Source: Macrocystis pyrifera
Lineage: Eukaryota > Sar > Phaeophyceae > Laminariales > Laminariaceae
Length of the DNA stretch: 64,000 nucleotides
NCBI GenBank assembly: GCA_031763025.1
Contig: JASSKH010000040.1
Location: 1,067,001-1,131,000 of the forward strand
Reading direction: 5' to 3'
How positions within the stretch are numbered: the stretch's first letter is position 1; each line of letters opens with the position of its first letter. Below the pieces are notes generated by a model that was given only the letters and a program-made list of their open reading frames with translations, was not told the DNA's origin and did no database searches. Position numbers and translations under genes: made by a program. Shown here in pieces: positions 55,413 through 64,000 of this stretch.

Positions 55413-56441
55413 TCAGTTGCCGCCCCCGCCCCTGGCCGCTCCGGCTCCCGAAGGGGCCGCACCGTTCCCGCCCCCGATGTAACTCCGGCTGAACCGCGCG
55501 ACGCTCGGCGGCCGTCCCCCCCCACCCCCCCCGGCTGCGCCGCTTCCCCCAGTGTCGGGGACCTCCGACTGCTGGGGCGGGTGGGGAGGGGGCGGGGGAG
55601 GTGGGAGGGACGTGTTTCGCGCCTGGCCTGTCCCCCACACGCGGGCTGATGGGGAGACCGGGTGATCATTGAACGGACAGGCGGGCCTGGGGCAGGCGTC
55701 GGCGCTCCACACGTAGCGACACGCGTTGGTGGGCAGGTTGTCCAGGACGGCGGGCCGCGGCTTGGAGGAGGTCCCCCCCGCCCCCCCCGAACCCATCCCG
55801 CCCTCCGCGACGGTCGCCTTCCGTCCGTTGGCGCCGGGGGGGGTCTTACGCTTCCCCGCCCCCCCGCCCTTTGCCGCGCGGGTGCGGGACCACATCTCCG
55901 ATCGCACGACCAATCTGTTTGTGCTGCCTTCCTCCACGAGCGCCCTTAGCTGCTTGAAGGCGAGTGGCTGGAAGACAGGGCCGCCGCTCGGCGGAGGTGG
56001 CACGAGGGGATGCTGCCTCCGCACGACTGCTGCGTCGACGGCGAGCTTGTACATGGCATCCTTGATGTCCGCATTGATGGCCTGTACGAGGACGTCTCGC
56101 ACCTGCGCGTTGTGCGGGGCGAGGACCAGGCGGTGAAACTGCAGATACGCCCGAAGTTCTCCCTCGACCTTCCCCAGCGCCTCCCTTACGCTCCTGACGG
56201 TGTGCATCACCGGGGTGTCCTCCATCCCGTACTCGAAGACGGCCATGAATGCGGAGATGAAGGTGCCGAAGTGGATATCAGCCGGCATATCCGTTGGTAC
56301 CTCTCTCGCTGGCGCGGGTGGGAAAAAGTCTTGCACAAGGAAGCCGGATAAAGAGTGCAGCTGCTCTACCGCGTCGTCCGATGCCCCGGCAACCGTCGTC
56401 AGACCGAGACACAAGAGGCCGTGGGACATCCCCTCGGACAC
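55413..56441 (-). CDS. DIRS Gag-like ORF, 342 residues
   Basis: Helical core (FGTFISAFMAVFEYGMEDTP, VRDVLVQAINADIKDAMYKL) and then a basic, Gly-rich region. A Cys/His cluster follows (CRYVWSADACPRPACPFNDH, spacing C-x8-C-x4-C-x4-H) and could bind zinc and RNA. The C-terminal tail is Pro- and Gly-rich. It lies in the Gag position, between the right terminal repeat and the RT. No sequence match was recognised, so Gag is inferred from position and layout. Confidence 0.6.
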   Translation of the reverse strand: MSEGMSHGLLCLGLTTVAGASDDAVEQLHSLSGFLVQDFFPPAPAREVPTDMPADIHFGTFISAFMAVFEYGMEDTPVMHTVRSVREALGKVEGELRAYLQFHRLVLAPHNAQVRDVLVQAINADIKDAMYKLAVDAAVVRRQHPLVPPPPSGGPVFQPLAFKQLRALVEEGSTNRLVVRSEMWSRTRAAKGGGAGKRKTPPGANGRKATVAEGGMGSGGAGGTSSKPRPAVLDNLPTNACRYVWSADACPRPACPFNDHPVSPSARVWGTGQARNTSLPPPPPPPHPPQQSEVPDTGGSGAAGGGGGGRPPSVARFSRSYIGGGNGAAPSGAGAARGGGGN

Positions 56442-56679
56442 GTGAAAGCAACCGCGCGCCGCGTAGAACTTTTGGCCTTCCCAGGACCGCCACAGGTCCG
56501 CCGTGACTCCCCCATGGGCTTTTACCGCCGCGCTGAGCGCAGCCTGCTCGCTGGGTCCTTGGGGCGGGGGGAGGGTTGAGGTGCGATCAAGCCCCCTCCT
56601 CCCAGTAGAGGCTACCCTCCCGCGAGCCCCCTGCGGATTGGAGGCCCTGGTGGGCTGGGTGTGGGACCAGCTGTGGCTG

Positions 56680-56985
56680 CTACAGCCGTGCCTGCTGCTG
56701 GACTTGTACCTGCTTGATGTGAGAGATACGTGCCCCGAGGGCGTCCTGCCCCGCCACTATGGCCTGCAGATGCTGCAGGACGGCGTCGAGACCCGCGGAG
56801 GAGGCTGGGCCGGGGTGTGCCTCGCCCTCTGCATTGTTGCCCGGGGCCACCCCAGATCCGCCGACGCCCCCAGCCGCGAGCCCGTCGGGGGGTGGGGCGA
56901 CGACAGTCTCACCTACCGGCGGGGCAGCCGCGGCTCCCTCTCCGGCGGCTGCGCCGCCGCCGACCTCGATGAGATCCCCGGCCAA
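56680..56985 (-). CDS. DIRS Gag N-terminal segment (separate frame)
   Basis: 101 residues: Ala/Gly/Pro-rich, then a likely coiled coil (LDAVLQHLQAIVAGQDALGA, HIKQVQVQQQA). It is in another frame from the 342-residue ORF, so a frameshift or a short separate ORF is possible. Confidence 0.45.
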   Translation of the reverse strand: MAGDLIEVGGGAAAGEGAAAAPPVGETVVAPPPDGLAAGGVGGSGVAPGNNAEGEAHPGPASSAGLDAVLQHLQAIVAGQDALGARISHIKQVQVQQQARL

Positions 56986-57065
56986 GTCGACGTTGTCGCC
57001 AATGGGCGAAGCCGCGACGTTGTTGTACGAGAAAGTCGATCGATCCAGTTGGTCTCGCCGTTTTC

Positions 57066-57288
57066 TACCACGCGAAGGTTGTGATACTACGATACCATCA
57101 CCTGCGACAGAACGAACCAGCTCTCTCCTTCGTCCGCTCCGACGTGCTCGTAGTTCGTTGCCTCCGCTGTTTTACGCCGACTGGAGACTGGACGAGTGCG
57201 CCGCACCCTTGTACGTCGGCCTGATTCAAACTATTCCGTTACTCGAATTCAGCCCGCCTCACAAACGCTAGTTTCGTACGGAAACCTA
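57066..57288. repeat. Right inverted terminal repeat of the DIRS element
   Basis: Complement of the left terminal repeat, ending at TACGGAAACCTACATTTTT. Family J resumes at GGTTCAACCGACGTAATTTT. Confidence 0.88.
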
Positions 57289-57340
57289 CATTTTTGGTTC
57301 AACCGACGTAATTTTCCTGGTTTTCCACAAGGTTGCTGGT
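57289..57340 (+). repeat. Family J, right flank of the DIRS insertion
   Basis: GGTTCAACCGACGTAATTTT and CCTGGTTTTCCACAAGG continue family J from the point where it stops at 48911. Confidence 0.8.
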
Positions 57341-57344
57341 AAAG

Positions 57345-59235
57345 GAGTAAATCGAGAGTGGAAAACGCCTGCGAAGTTTGGCGTGAAGAATCCTTCTTGT
57401 TTTTTTGGAAACCCCTCCCGAGGAAATTTTCAGAATTGTTCTCCGTTTCCCCCCCCCCCCCCCCCCCCTTTTTCGTTTTTGTCAGACAATTCCTGCCCGC
57501 AAGATTGCACATCTTCGGGGGCCAATATTTATACGTTATATGACGTCTTTTCGTGAAGAAAATTGACTGAATGACGTCTTTCCGTGAAGGAAATTGGTTG
57601 AAAATGAGAGACACACACAATTTTTATGAAAATGCGACCAAAGTAAAGACAAAAGACACATAATCTCGCAAATAAGACCAACATCAACACAGACTTTCTG
57701 CCGGAAAAAGGTGGTATTGATGAAGAAAATTGGTGGCAAATGAGACGAAAATAATTCAATTTTCGACGGTGCTTATTTTGAGATAAAAAGACTGGCAACG
57801 TTTATACGCATGTATTATTGGTATGTTTTAACGCTGAAGAGCGCATTTCCCCCGCAAAACATATTAACAAAAACCCACCCCGCACAAGAAAGAAGGCGCC
57901 GACACAAGGTAAAATCCTTGACTCCTATCTTGAAAGAAAAAAAATCGCCGGTGAGTTAAAAATGAACTCGAGGGAGAACCGAAAAAAACTCGCCGTCAAG
58001 GTTATATTACCGCCTTCTCTCCGCTAAATACATGCCCGCAACGGAGTAGCACAGCACGAAATCTCACCTCGGACGAAAAAGAACGCGACAATGTACGAAA
58101 GCAATGACACCCATGGAAAAATACTACAATATGTCCCGGTAAGAAAAAACCGAACTCGAGGGAAAACGGAAACAAAAATCTCGCCGAGAAGTGCAGCGTA
58201 CAGCAGTGTACAGACCCCGCTAGAACTATAGGTAATTAACCTGCGTACACCGATGAATCTATCTCTCGTTGGTACGCAGTGTGCACTGCACAGGTTACGT
58301 AAGAACTCCGTAAATAACCTGTGCACTGACCAATCTATCGACGTCATACAGCCGTGAAAGTTACAACAACAACAACAAAAAATGCAGACTCCGTTCTTCC
58401 TACTCGTGCGTATTACCGTAAGCTGAGAGAGAATCGAACTAGGAAAGTCCAAGATGAACGCACTGGTTACGGGACCCCAACGGCTTCTACGGGAACGCAA
58501 TATAAACGCGTTCGCTACTATCGCTGTATGAAAACGAACCTACTAGTTACGAAACCAGAACAGCTTCTATGGGAACGGAATATAAACGTCTTCGCAACTG
58601 CTGTACAGACTTCGTGAAACCGCATTAAGGGAAAACTATACAACAGACATATCTATAAAACCTACCAGGTACTAGTTAGGAAACCCGAATGGACTCTACG
58701 GGAACGCAAGATAAACCTCTCCGTCACAGCTGTACAGACTTCGTAAAACTGTACAACAGATGATGCATCATCTACAATATGTGCTTCTACGGGAACGTCA
58801 AGCAAAACTTTCTGGGACCCAAGGTGAGACTCTTTGGGGCCGTAGAGAAATCTCTCTAGTACTGCAGTACGGGCTTAGTAAACTCTTATGGTAAAACTGC
58901 TCAGATGGATCAGACGGATCACATGCACCATCCATAATATGCACTTCGACGGCATGGTGCAACAGCAGAGAGCACTGGTATCACTACGCAAGATGAACAC
59001 GCGACCACTAAAAGCGTACAGGAGGGGAGGAGGTCTAGAAGGACGTCCGAAATATATTGGGAACACTCCTCTTCACATGGCAACGACGGCAAAAACATGA
59101 ACAACAAACGTGTGTTAACACTCACGCCAACAGCGACAGGAACACAGAGCCCCCTCCCGTGTAAACCCCGACGAGTGAGCATCTCACGACAAGAAAACCC
59201 GCGCCACCCCCCCGCATCCACCGTGGGCGTGGTAG
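57345..59235. other. AT-rich stretch without recognisable gene; diffuse repeats
   Basis: A C-run lies at 57450-57468. Between 58460 and 58870, imperfect units of about 110-130 bp carry CTTCTACGGGAACGCAATAT and GCTGTACAGACTTCGT. No coding motif was recognised. Confidence 0.55.
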
Positions 59236-59238
59236 GTA

Positions 59239-59350
59239 ATACGGGGAACCATACCTGGTAGTAAATAGGACCAAATATTGTTAGTAAAAATAGGTAAATA
59301 TATAGGTTTTTATGTATACCATAGGTCCTATTAACTATGGACCCCCGTAA
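59239..59350. mobile_element. MITE copy with a 7-bp internal insertion
   Basis: Same family as 13127-13231, but the left arm reads CCATACCTGGTAGTAAAT where the others read CCATAGTAAAT. The rest is conserved to the CCCCCGTAA end. Confidence 0.88.
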
Positions 59351-59595
59351 TAGTAACCACGGTATGAACGCGTCAGTACATGGGGGAAGTTGGACTGACG
59401 ACTGACTAATTTAGGAAAGGAAAGGAAATCTACACTCCCCGCCCCGGCCCCTCTTTAACGGTGCCACCACTGTCCAACGTAACCTCCAGCACGGACAACT
59501 GGCGGAATGGCAGGAAGACGTTGATGACCTCTCATGAAAGAACAGGTAGGCGAACTTGCCCGAACAGCTATCCAATTCAGAGAAGGCGAAGACAA

Positions 59596-60003
59596 CTAGG
59601 CGTCCGGATCCTCCCCCTTGCCGTGGCTGCTGTCCCCGCCGATTCCAATGTTAGACAGTAGCAGCGTATCGGGGGCAGACAGGAACGCCGACACCTGCGA
59701 GTCGTGGGAAGAACTACCACCGGACGCGGCTGCAGCATTGGCGGTGTCTTCGGCGGGAGAGCCAGGCGAAGGTAGGGAGGCCGTTGCCGTCGTGGCAGGG
59801 GTAGTAGGAGTACCTCCAGCGGCGCCGCGCGCGAGGTTAACCTCCGCCTCCGCCATAGCGGTGAGGATGTCGCGGCGGCGAGAAGCGTGAGACTGCGCCC
59901 CGTCAGCGGTCATGTCGGCAAATGGCAGGTCGGAGAGTTCCCACGCTTGGCAGGTGGACCCGGTGTGGGTGTCGAAGAAGATATGTCGTAGACAGCGAGG
60001 CAA
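59596..60003 (-). pseudogene. Unassigned C-terminal frame of the Ty3-like element
   Basis: 136 codons: WELSDLPFADMTADGAQSHA, SRRRDILTAMAEAEVNLARG and then a Thr/Ala/Ser/Pro-rich tail ending GDSSHGKGEDPDA before a stop. It follows the truncated RNase H in another frame. It may be the end of a polyprotein whose integrase was deleted; no family was recognised. Confidence 0.35.
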
Positions 60004-60230
60004 CGGCTCCAGACGATGTTGCTTGCTTCCAGATCGAGCGGAGTCCAGTGGCGTTCAGACTCGATGGTAGCGCGGCTGATGAGCGCGATGGGACGAATGG
60101 TGTGGTCGTCCTCACAAGCATCACAGTAGAGGAAGAAAGGGCGGGAGTCATCAGTGACGGCGTCCCAGTTGGGATAGACGAGGACCGGGGGCATGGTCAA
60201 CTCGGCCAGGAGCTTCCGCACGATGACTTG
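59905..60230 (-). pseudogene. Ty3/gypsy RNase H, internally deleted
   Basis: MPPVLVYPNWDAVTDDSRPF, LYCDAC, then DDHTIRPIALISRATIESER and HWTPLDLEASNIVWS. The usual stretch after the first catalytic Asp, about a dozen residues, is missing between DAC and EDDH. Homology ends abruptly after VWS. Confidence 0.85.
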
Positions 60231-61267
60231 ACTTCTATTTCTGGGGTAAAGACGACTTGACGCCTTGTTTCACAAGGGAAGTGATGGATCGTATGCGCTT
60301 GGCCATATCGCGCAGGAATTTCCTGTAGCAGGAAAGTGCGCCTAAAAGGGAGCGTAGCTGTTTCAGGTCTTTCGGCATGGGCGTTTTCGTCTTGTGCTTC
60401 CACTTTCTGCGCGTTCGGCACAACGCCGGCTGGAGAGATGGTGCGACCGAGAAAATCCGCATGCGTGGCGCCGATGGTAGCCTTTGAAGGGGACAACTTG
60501 AGGTTGTGCTGTCGCAATCGCAAGAACAATTCCTTCATGCTCGCGACGTGGAGGGAGGGACTGGCGTCGAAGACGATGACGTCGTCGGGGTAGGCGGCAA
60601 CGCGGTCCAAGCCCTTGATGACCTCGTTGATGACTTTGACGGACCACCCTGGAGCAGCGCTGCTTCCTTGAGGCATAACCAGCCACTCGACAAGGCGCGT
60701 GGGTGTACATAAAGCAGTGAGAGGGATCGTGTCCTTGTGTACCATTATCTGATGAAAAGAAGAGACGAAGTCGAAGAGTGCGAAGATTCGACCGGTGCCA
60801 AGCTTGTCGAGAACCCCATCAACGCGCGGGATGGGGAGCTGGCCAAGGATGCTGAGTTTGTTCAGCTTGTTGTAGTTCACCGTGATTCGGATGCCACCGG
60901 ATTTCTTCGGGATGACAACCACTGGGCTCGCCCAGGGAGATGTGGAGTGTTGGATGAGGCCGGCGGCGAGGAATTTATCCAGAACCGAGTCCACTTGCTT
61001 GGCGGTCGGGGGATTGATGCGATAGGGCCGAGACATGACAGGAGAGCTGTTCGGGGGAACAGTTATCTTGAAGGGCAGCAGAGAGCAGGGGCCAAAATCG
61101 GTTGGAGACTTTGAGAACACGTCGGAGAACTCAGCGAGAACATCGCCCAACTGGGTGATGACGGTTGGCGTCCAACCGAGACCGCGCGAGTCAAATGCGA
61201 GTTCGCGCATGTGCAACAGTAAACGGTGCCATACTTGTAGAAAGCTCGTGCGTTGGTCTGTACTCAA
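60230..61267 (-). pseudogene. Ty3/gypsy reverse transcriptase with altered YxDD
   Basis: RT motifs in order: RPYRINPPTAKQVDSVLDKF, SPWASPVVVIPKKSGGIRIT, FALFDFVSSFHQIMVHKD, MPQGSSAAPGWSVKVINEVI and AYPDDVIVF, then KLSPSKATIGATHADFLG. The catalytic YxDD reads Tyr-Pro-Asp-Asp (TACCCC at 60587-60592). A Pro there is unusual and probably inactivating. A frameshift near 60400 moves the connection region (LKQLRSLLGALSCYRKFLRD) to another frame. Confidence 0.92.
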
Positions 61268-61697
61268 TCGTTCGAGCAGCGCAGGTGAAGGGGGGTGGTC
61301 GACTGGCGGAGCCGAAGGGGGTCGCGAGTTCTTCGCGTGTCGGGGCTGTCTCGTCGCGTAGATGGTGCACGAAGGGATCCAAGCACTGTGGTTGTGAGGG
61401 CTGGTCCGTGCCTATAGAATGGGGGAGGACTGACCCTGGGACTGAGAATCCAAAGTCGTGTGAGCGTAAAGAAGGAGCCGGAGCGTCGAACAGGACAGTT
61501 TCCAGGGGAACGCGTAATAGCGGGCTAGACGAGGTGCCAAGAAAGGCACTTGGGTCTAGATCCGCGGCGCCGGCTAATGGGATGAGCTGGCAGCCATTTT
61601 CTACAATTTGTTCATCCGCAGAAAAATCGGTGACCGCGTGCAGCATGTTGACCAGGTAGCAACCGGCGAGGGCAGGGGCGCCATTACTGCGAACCAA
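61191..61697 (-). pseudogene. Linker between protease and RT of the Ty3-like element
   Basis: 168 codons (CYLVNMLHAVTDFSADEQIV, LDPFVHHLRDETAPTREELA) between the protease frame and the RT frame, offset from both. There is no catalytic motif. It is likely spacer of the polyprotein. Confidence 0.5.
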
Positions 61698-61756
61698 ATC
61701 GACATCGTGATGCCTGTGTCACCCGCATACAGTAGGTGGAAGCTTTCAGGATAAGC

Positions 61757-62240
61757 CTAAGAGTCGGGCGCAAACGCTGTTGCGCCCTGTAGTCCTGGGA
61801 GGGACAGCGCAAGTTCGCCGAGAACCCGATTAGTCATCGAGCAGGGAGCCAATGTACGGTAGGAGCGATCCTGGAACCACATCCAGCTGTCGCGTCCGCG
61901 TAGCACGTCGTGTTGCATCGCTTCAGGTGGGACGACGTATGCCCATACGGCGAGTGATGCAGTTGGTGTATCGCCGTGGAAGAATTGTACGCTTGAACGT
62001 ACTGTAACCGTGGTCTCAAGAGGCAGAGACTTACGAAAGCCGCCCCATGACCTGGGAGGGGTGCGTCGTTCGCAAGTGACAGAGGCAGCACCCACGCGTT
62101 TCATGCTATCGAACGCGCGGGTGTTAAGGAAAGTCTGCGGCGAGCCCGAATCCAAAAGGCGACACATCCAAGCTGCAGAACAGCCAGGTCACTGTGGATC
62201 TTGATTTTGGTGGTGAAGGAAGAGTCGTCCATGATTACTA
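61757..62240 (-). pseudogene. Retropepsin-like aspartic protease of the Ty3-like element
   Basis: CRLLDSGSPQTFLNTRAFDS carries the D-S-G active-site triad in the hydrophobic context of retropepsins. The preceding strands, VIMDDSSFTTKIKIHSDLAV, are in another frame, joined at about 62165. YVVPPEAMQHDVLRGRDSWM and YRTLAPCSMTNRVLGELALS follow. It lies directly upstream of the RT, as expected for a pol polyprotein. Confidence 0.75.
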
Positions 62241-62244
62241 CACC

Positions 62245-62524
62245 AGCAACAAGACAAGGCCCTTGCTCAGCGAGCAAGGGGGGGTGCTGACTGGAGCGGG
62301 CGGCGGACATTACTTCGAGAACGTCGCTGCCGTGGTCTGATGGCACGGTTGTGGGGGAGTCGGGGTACCCCGACAGGGAGGCGGCTGCAGGTGTGTCCCT
62401 TGGGCACAGTTGCTCTCGCGTCGAAGGGTCGCCTTCGAAGATGCGGTCTCTACTAGAGCGCGAGGTGTCCTGAGGAGACCATCGTTGGGGGCGCGTCGGT
62501 GGCGCGCGCGGTCGCGGAAGAGAT
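62245..62524 (-). pseudogene. Linker between NADAR and protease
   Basis: A low-complexity segment in a third frame (GYPDSPTTVPSDHGSDVLEV, MSAARSSQHPPLLAEQGP) ties the NADAR region to the protease strands. It shows no domain. Confidence 0.5.
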
Positions 62525-63020
62525 GTCGGGCGTTTTGCAGAGCCTTGCCCAGAAAATTTAAGCCGCGCCACAGGGGCGGCTGGAGTGCAGGAATAGCGTC
62601 AGCCCTGTATCCGATGCCCCATATGAGGTCGTGAGGGCTAACTTCCGCGAGAAGTTTGTCGCCTGTGTCCAAGAGGTGGGATCGCATGGCTGGGTTTTGA
62701 GCGAACTTGACGTAAGAGCCGACAAGCACGATATTTTCTCGCTCGCGTTCCCACACGGCGAGATCGAAGTTACGGACTTCTCGTCCATATTGTTTGTGCA
62801 GGCGGGCGTCTGACACGCGCATGATGTGTTGTAGGGTCTGGTGGTCTCTGAAGAGGCGACTCTTTTCGGCAGCGAAGAACTGTTCGCCGCAGGAATAAGA
62901 GATGCCTTCGACCGTAAAATGGGAAGGCGTCCATTGCGAAAGCATGAGGGGGGCTGCCAGAAGAACACGATATCGCGCGTGCAGTACTCTTGCGTAGGAT
63001 CGAACGCGGCGGTATTCACC
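62525..63020 (-). pseudogene. NADAR (YbiA-like) domain upstream of the protease, frameshifted
   Basis: The domain starts with YCTRDIVFFWQPPS in one frame (63000-62950). After a one-base shift at a C6 run (about 62947-62952) it continues LSQWTPSHFTVEGISYSCGE, QFFAAEKSRLFRD, NFDLAVWERERENIVLVGSY, VKFAQNPAMRSHLLDTGDKL, LAEVSPHDLIWGIGYRAD and NFLGKALQNAR. These match NADAR landmarks: the EQ-F-x-x-x-K helix, the KF..NP.....LL.TGD segment and SP.D..WG.G. Characterised NADAR proteins act on ADP-ribose or related nucleosides. The domain sits in the Gag-side part of a Ty3-like polyprotein, so it was probably captured by the element. Confidence 0.82.
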
Positions 63021-63664
63021 GTCGCGCGAGGAGAAGCGGGGGGGGTGTCAGACACATCCCCTGAAAAGCGGTTGGGGGTCTCTCTCTCTCTGGGAGACGG
63101 GTCCCAACCTGCTTCTTGCCCTGACAGAACCTCGTTATCGAGGCCGGGGTGGGAGGCGCATTCGCCTGGACCGGTCGTGTCTGCGGTCCCCGAGACATTT
63201 CGGGGAGGGGCAGGGGGCTCTCGACCGGTCCACCTTGACCGGGTGGGCGAGACATCCGCCATGTAGGCGGGAGGCATTTGAAGTGCGTCCACAGCAAATT
63301 GTGTTGTCAGCACGGCCCGGGCGGCACGCGGGGTCTGTTCTCTCAGATCACCTCGTCGTGACTCGTCTGGGAAAGAAGGGGCGCAACTTGGCGCCAAGGG
63401 CGTAGCTGCGTGTAAGCCCTGTGGGGGACATGTGTCGTCCTGTTGGGGACACGTGTTCTCCACCAGCCCAGTGGCCTCCGGCGAAACGCCGTGGCTCAAA
63501 GAAGAATCTTCCACTACGCTCTGATCAGGATGAAAATCAAAGCTGACTACACTCCGATCGTCTTCGATAGTAGTGCGCAGAGGGAGATTCCGACTGGTCT
63601 TGCGTGAGGACCTCGAGCGGAGCGCCCGTGTTGTCTCGAGGGACCTGTGTTCCCGTACCCGCAC
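62950..63664 (-). pseudogene. N-terminal part of the NADAR-bearing polyprotein
   Basis: The frame runs from about 63664 to the NADAR start: a charged N-terminus (RSRSSRKTSRNLPLR), then Pro/Ser/Thr-rich linkers (GREPPAPPRNVSGTADTTGP, PRERETPNRFSGDVSDTPPA). No canonical Gag motif or zinc knuckle was seen. Confidence 0.5.
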
Positions 63665-63699
63665 CTCAAGGCGACCCTCACATCCTGTGAGTCACTCCT

Positions 63700-63990
63700 G
63701 GACATGGTGGCTGCCTCAAAAGATGAAGTCGGGGAGGACGCACGCGGAAAATTACGACTAGTGTTGTTTACGCGGGGACCAGGAGTGCCGGGCACTCCTG
63801 GTGCTTGCGGCGGAGAGGCTACGGCGGCAATCATACCGTCGTCTTCGCCAAAACCAGGAGCGACAAGCATGCCTGGTGCCTGCGGGGAAGAGCCTACGGC
63901 AGCTGAAAGGCGGCCATCTTCGCAGAGACTAGGGGCGGTACGCATACCCGGTTCCGGCGGTGAACATGTAGAACCTACGATCTCAACCAA
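63700..63990 (-). repeat. 75-bp coding tandem repeat upstream of the polyprotein
   Basis: On the minus strand a frame carries 25-residue repeats, CSPPEPGMRTAPSLCEDGRL, SSPQAPGMLVAPGFGEDDGM and a partial SPPQAPGVPGTPG. The array runs towards or past the window edge. Confidence 0.75.
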
Positions 63991-64000
63991 AGGACCGTCT

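Follow-up and report, generated by a model that had tools for sequence, protein, structure and literature searches.

A NADAR domain in the Pol polyprotein of a Ty3/Gypsy-type retrotransposon lineage of the kelp Macrocystis pyrifera, and its possible roles

A NADAR-bearing element in a kelp genome

The window analyzed here is a 64,000-nucleotide stretch of the genome of the brown alga Macrocystis pyrifera (GenBank assembly GCA_031763025.1, contig JASSKH010000040.1, positions 1,067,001 to 1,131,000). Its right-hand end almost certainly holds a 3'-truncated, frame-broken Ty3/Gypsy-type long terminal repeat (LTR) retrotransposon of the alga that carries a NADAR domain near the start of Pol. All parts of the element are encoded on the reverse strand. 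The NADAR domain is of the YbiA type and occupies 62526-63020. It is recognized by its Pfam profile (PF08719, 4.3e-40 on the scanned piece 62310-63047), by alignment with the solved structure 8bau and by comparison with other copies, and its first ~23 homologous residues sit in a different frame. In alignments with solved NADARs, three of its residues fall on catalytic positions: E46 (62883-62885), K53 (62862-62864) and E126 (62643-62645). The retropepsin-like protease piece (61757-62188), which contains LLDSGSPQTF and, further on, GRDSW, gave no match in a Pfam scan and is identified by a motif common to other copies. Within this motif, LLD[ST]GSPQTF, the D[ST]G stands in every one of the 13 copies that were examined, and 11 of these 13 also have a GRD further on. 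The Ty3/Gypsy-type reverse transcriptase (RT) lies at 60497-61267 (RVT_1, 1.8e-20 on the scanned piece 60197-61411) and its active site reads YPDD (60581-60592). Across 31 RT copies examined, the YxDD motif is YLDD in 25 and YPDD in two, while four do not match the pattern. The series ends with an RNase H that is cut short, at 60009-60269 (RT_RNaseH_2, 5.1e-7 on 59910-60269). A first-pass annotation made from the letters of the window had described a NADAR, a D-S-G protease, a gypsy RT and an RNase H in that order on one strand, and the profile matches together with the protease motif bear this out.

Linkage of NADAR and reverse transcriptase

The genome searched comprises 537,376,219 bases in 223 contigs. 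EsV-1-7 repeats mark brown algae, and 1585 candidates for them were found, of which 150 were scored. NADAR was sought both by protein search (1387 candidates, 150 scored) and by Pfam profile (1264 candidates, 150 scored), and the two scored lists merge into 249 places. The RT search returned 3247 candidates, 148 of which were scored. A listed NADAR lies upstream of RT on the same strand in 65 of these 148 copies. The distance from NADAR to RT is 1.59-2.22 kb in 64 of the 65 pairs and 4.76 kb in the remaining one. No listed NADAR was found downstream of RT or on the opposite strand within 6 kb of any of the 148 scored copies. From the 83 RT copies that have no listed NADAR, 20 were drawn at random and their sequences were fetched and inspected; 16 of the 20 carry an upstream NADAR on the same strand, whole or in part. 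Because of these pairing counts and because no other arrangement occurs among the listed places within 6 kb, the association of NADAR with RT is beyond chance. Capture of the NADAR by a Ty3-like element, which had been proposed from the window copy, is upheld by this fixed-order pairing, which recurs in many genomic copies, and by the open-frame and LTR-bounded copies described below. Neither of the two outcomes that the first-pass annotation named as refuting it was observed. NADAR places of equal score were also seen on separate contigs (C46:34559, C48:11451, C129:3254870, C149:46477 and C200:2845266), which suggests that these copies are very recent or that the contigs are duplicated.

Architecture of other copies

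Five of the copies fetched (L010-L014) have NADAR, protease and RT within a single open frame, in agreement with the proposal, made from the broken window copy, that NADAR and pol descend from one ancestral open reading frame. The 2349-amino-acid frame in L010 and its neighbour L021 runs from NADAR through RT and integrase to a weak chromodomain. In piecewise Pfam scans, this frame matches NADAR (5.6e-45), RVT_1 (1.7e-18 and 5e-23, in two pieces), Integrase_H2C2 (6.5e-13) and rve (2.4e-7, slightly below the Pfam cut-off). An RNase H lies 3' of RT in L010 (tblastn) and in L012 (2.1e-31). A Gag zinc knuckle, CX2CX4HX4C, lies upstream of the 2349-amino-acid frame, and the knuckle is present in L010, L011, L013, L014, L016 and L020 among 16 sources scanned. 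The copy on C207 is bounded by a pair of LTRs (L021:1019-1285 and L022:3252-3519) that are 97.0% identical over 268 base pairs and enclose ~14.5 kb. It is one element with NADAR and pol in one frame between LTRs, the form that the first-pass annotation had proposed to look for. The LTR edges of this one copy were read for a target-site duplication, and a clear repeat was not established. The order of the lineage is LTR - Gag (zinc knuckle) - NADAR - protease - RT - RNase H - integrase - chromodomain-like end - LTR. The flanking LTRs of C207, the order of RT, RNase H and integrase, and the zinc knuckle of Gag are features of Ty3/Gypsy LTR retrotransposons. Direct repeats with units of ~125-260 bases are found in or beside several copies (L022:99-894, L016:7346-7968 and L017:1591-1966).

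Similarity of the window copy to the LTR-bounded copy extends from beyond the right window edge to 60009 and then ends (blastn and tblastn with L010); by this alignment, its RNase H is truncated at 60009. Nothing in the window matched the parts of the LTR-bounded copy that hold integrase, chromodomain and LTR, and the window copy, as aligned, is a broken relic that lacks integrase and 3' LTR. The span of 59596-64000 first given for the element holds from 60009 upward; since similarity ends there, membership of 59596-60009 in the element is not shown. Pfam scans of the frames 56680-57171, 58024-58539, 58919-59410 and 59596-60054 were without a match, and no tandem repeats were reported in a scan of 56000-64000. 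On the other side of NADAR, 63021-64000 is the stretch between Gag and NADAR on the reverse strand, placed by its translation and by blastn and tblastn searches with L010 against the window and L009. Proline/glycine-rich repeats, as judged by eye, lie in the open frame 63547-63999. By extension of these searches, Gag of the window copy lies past the window edge (L009:5324-6246, equal to window 64324-65246). Further beyond the edge there is a break of ~2.9 kb in the similarity to the LTR-bounded copy (L009:6558-9502, equal to window 65558-68502), which looks as if something had been inserted into the 5' part of the window copy.

Conservation of the NADAR domain

Among the NADARs of the genome at least three subfamilies are seen: A, which includes the window copy, B (~54% identical to A) and C (~45%). 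Identities between subfamilies were taken from a single representative of each (L010 for A, L012 for B and L036 for C). They are 49-58% for NADAR, 56-58% for protease and 74-77% for RT. NADAR is preceded by a stretch of 22-30% identity and followed by a linker of 32-33%; shuffled controls give 18-25%. The segment that separates protease from RT reaches 37-41%, more than either flank of NADAR. Pairwise Nei-Gojobori counts, for which the one or two stops in each of seven RT pieces from groups B and C were skipped, put the nonsynonymous divergence (dN) of NADAR between A and B at 0.385 against a synonymous divergence (dS) of about 2.5; in NADAR comparisons that involve C, dS has reached saturation. 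In an alignment of 12 stop-free NADAR pieces, a restriction that biases it toward intact residues, E46 is kept in 11, K53 in 11 and E126 in all 12. On our reading of the alignment, E126 is the last-strand Glu of NADARs; the roles of the catalytic Glu, the Lys and the last-strand Glu have been described (PMC11543638, PMC11125620). The structure model of the kelp NADAR has 8bau and 2b3w as its top two Foldseek matches (8bau, E 3.4e-4) and serves as support only, given its mean predicted local distance difference test score (pLDDT) of 60.7. Because identity between subfamilies resembles that of the protease and because the catalytic E, K and E are mostly kept, the element probably uses its NADAR.

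Origin and relatives of the NADAR

Relatives of the NADAR were sought in bacterial, metagenomic viral and phage collections. Bacterial relatives are up to 48% identical over the domain (one segment in a broken row reaches 51%), metagenomic viral relatives are up to 46% identical, and phages contribute 711 records with a top row of 45%. The better-scoring of two solved relatives found is the NADAR of Phytophthora nicotianae (2.1e-27). One phage homologue with 45% identity, L109 (Pseudomonas phage ZQG1, 1-501), carries the annotation GTP cyclohydrolase, which may be an error or may belong to a riboflavin-type theme.

In a NADAR tree of 58 rows, from which 7 of the 35 loci from the genome, 7 of the 27 viral loci and, because of stops, rows L081 and L108 were left out, A and B are joined (96/83), C stands apart, and a bacterial row lies beside A and B (94/85). 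This topology speaks for more than one capture, the NADAR of subfamily C having been acquired separately from that of A and B. A single clade of all subfamilies is nevertheless not rejected by the approximately unbiased test (p-AU 0.197). Further, the adjacent protease has diverged between subfamilies about as much as NADAR and therefore fits vertical descent. A separate capture of C appears unlikely.

A separate host NADAR gene was also looked for with a piece of E. coli YbiA, and none was recognized in the genome among the matches listed, so that absence is not established. Of 510 candidates 150 were scored, and 122 matches were obtained; among the top 20, which were compared with the listed NADAR places, 18 are places already listed.

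Possible functions of the NADAR

We tentatively favour a role in which NADAR frees the RNA or complementary DNA (cDNA) of the element from ADP-ribose or a comparable adduct. De-ADP-ribosylation of nucleic acid is favoured because a solved relative with the same residues, the P. nicotianae NADAR, removes ADP-ribose from guanine (PMC11543638). Several NADARs de-ADP-ribosylate guanine too, but they protect from differing things (PMC11125620). Given its place in Pol upstream of the protease, NADAR would be made as part of Gag-Pol and would be packaged in the virus-like particle alongside RNA, transfer RNA (tRNA) primer and cDNA. Inside the particle it could hydrolyse an adduct on the nucleic acid of the element, either ADP-ribose or another with a similar N-glycosidic link. 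The adduct would most plausibly be ADP-ribosyl-guanine, placed by a host or invader enzyme, and its removal may let reverse transcription finish. Taken as a whole, in a judgment that blends the identity of the element with the de-ADP-ribosylation role, the explanation stands a little short of an even chance.

Several observations weigh against it. NADAR went undetected at 4 of the 20 sampled RT loci (L027, L032, L034 and L035), and the Chromo match of the 2349-amino-acid frame (9.4e-4) scores 19.5 bits against a Pfam cut-off of 25.1. Within subfamilies, NADAR dN/dS is mixed, with low dS and few changes: it spans 0.15-0.91 for A when the window copy is excluded, 0.38-1.84 for B and 0.24-0.60 for C; the NADAR of the window copy is at 0.55-0.70, partly inflated by its out-of-frame first ~23 residues. 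Catalytic residues are lost in some copies: L011, with an open frame of 2016 amino acids, has N at K53, L037 has V at E46, and stop-bearing copies show more losses (L002 at E46, L029 and L030 at E126). DarT was sought in the host genome without a match. A PARP search of the same genome found a single PARP-domain exon; other ADP-ribosyltransferase families were not searched. A nucleic-acid ADP-ribosyltransferase for the element to counter is therefore not in sight, and the same two results bear on the counter to ADP-ribose-based defences that the first-pass annotation had put forward.

Instead of answering a host attack, NADAR may help the priming of reverse transcription by processing the ends of RNA or the tRNA primer, acting for example on ADP-ribose or cyclic-phosphate by-products of tRNA repair. 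Dinatale et al. suggest processing of RNA intermediates (PMC12477816), NADARs have been linked to RNA repair (PMC9503650), and the domain would accompany RT and tRNA primer. We consider this role unlikely, though the least so among the alternatives, given that the solved relative acts on guanine-linked ADP-ribose (PMC11543638) and that Pfam scans of the polyprotein pieces found no RNA-repair partner domain. Somewhat less probable still is an action away from the particle, in which NADAR would, in the manner of YbiA, clear small derivatives of ADP-ribose or reactive intermediates of riboflavin from the cell, or would counter NAD-derived immune signals. YbiA is an N-glycosidase of riboflavin intermediates (PMC9503650, PMC11543638), and phage NADARs, which are among the relatives found here, are thought to act chiefly on soluble ADP-ribose derivatives (PMC9503650). 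The fusion in Pol upstream of the protease would, however, tie NADAR to the particle, unless the protease frees it. That a host NADAR gene lies beside a retrotransposon fragment by accident could be entertained from the window copy, which is frame-broken and on its own leaves the linkage unprovable, but this is refuted, with a negligible chance remaining, by copy number (150 scored NADAR places of 1387 candidates), by the fixed order with RT and by the single open frame of the five fetched copies.

The favoured role, removal of ADP-ribose from the element's nucleic acid, can be extended to the host. In brown algae, nucleic acid that is foreign or lies outside the chromosomes might be tagged with ADP-ribose, and the lineage might survive by means of a bacterial- or phage-type eraser inside its particle. 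We think this improbable. If it were true, the element would be, to our knowledge, the first retrotransposon shown to supply a nucleic-acid de-ADP-ribosylase of its own, and it would indicate an algal defence not yet known.

Comparison with known systems

Although the first-pass annotation did not know of NADAR as a standard part of Ty3 elements, the arrangement itself is already published and is not new. Dinatale et al. (2025) reported NADAR at the N-terminus of Pol in a Gypsy lineage of Ectocarpus, e.g., Gypsy-12_Ec32 (PMC12477816), and theirs is the sole paper on the point among the titles listed. The kelp adds to that report many copies, at least three NADAR subfamilies and a test of constraint. 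Between subfamilies NADAR is held about as tightly as the adjoining protease. This suggests that the domain does work for the element, and it opens a testable route to ADP-ribose chemistry, be it in retrotransposition or in the defence of algae.

By its published description, the Ectocarpus lineage is arranged like the kelp element, with NADAR, protease and RT in Pol; the kelp copies differ in coming from another brown alga and in their subfamilies. The Tx1 long interspersed nuclear elements (LINEs) of Crassostrea gigas likewise bear a NADAR-like domain on a retrotransposon, but these are non-LTR elements, the domain is in ORF1 instead of Pol, and the hits are divergent (PMC12477816). Animal RNA viruses encode NADAR or Macro domains alongside the polymerase in their polyproteins and resemble the kelp element in this pairing with ADP-ribose processing, whereas their polymerase is an RNA-dependent RNA polymerase and they are not reverse-transcribing (PMC9503650). 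The NADAR of P. nicotianae (8bau) and YbiA of E. coli (2b3w) share their fold family with the kelp NADAR, and the E, K and later E align with 8bau; both are solved as stand-alone chains, whereas the kelp NADAR is a domain of a polyprotein.

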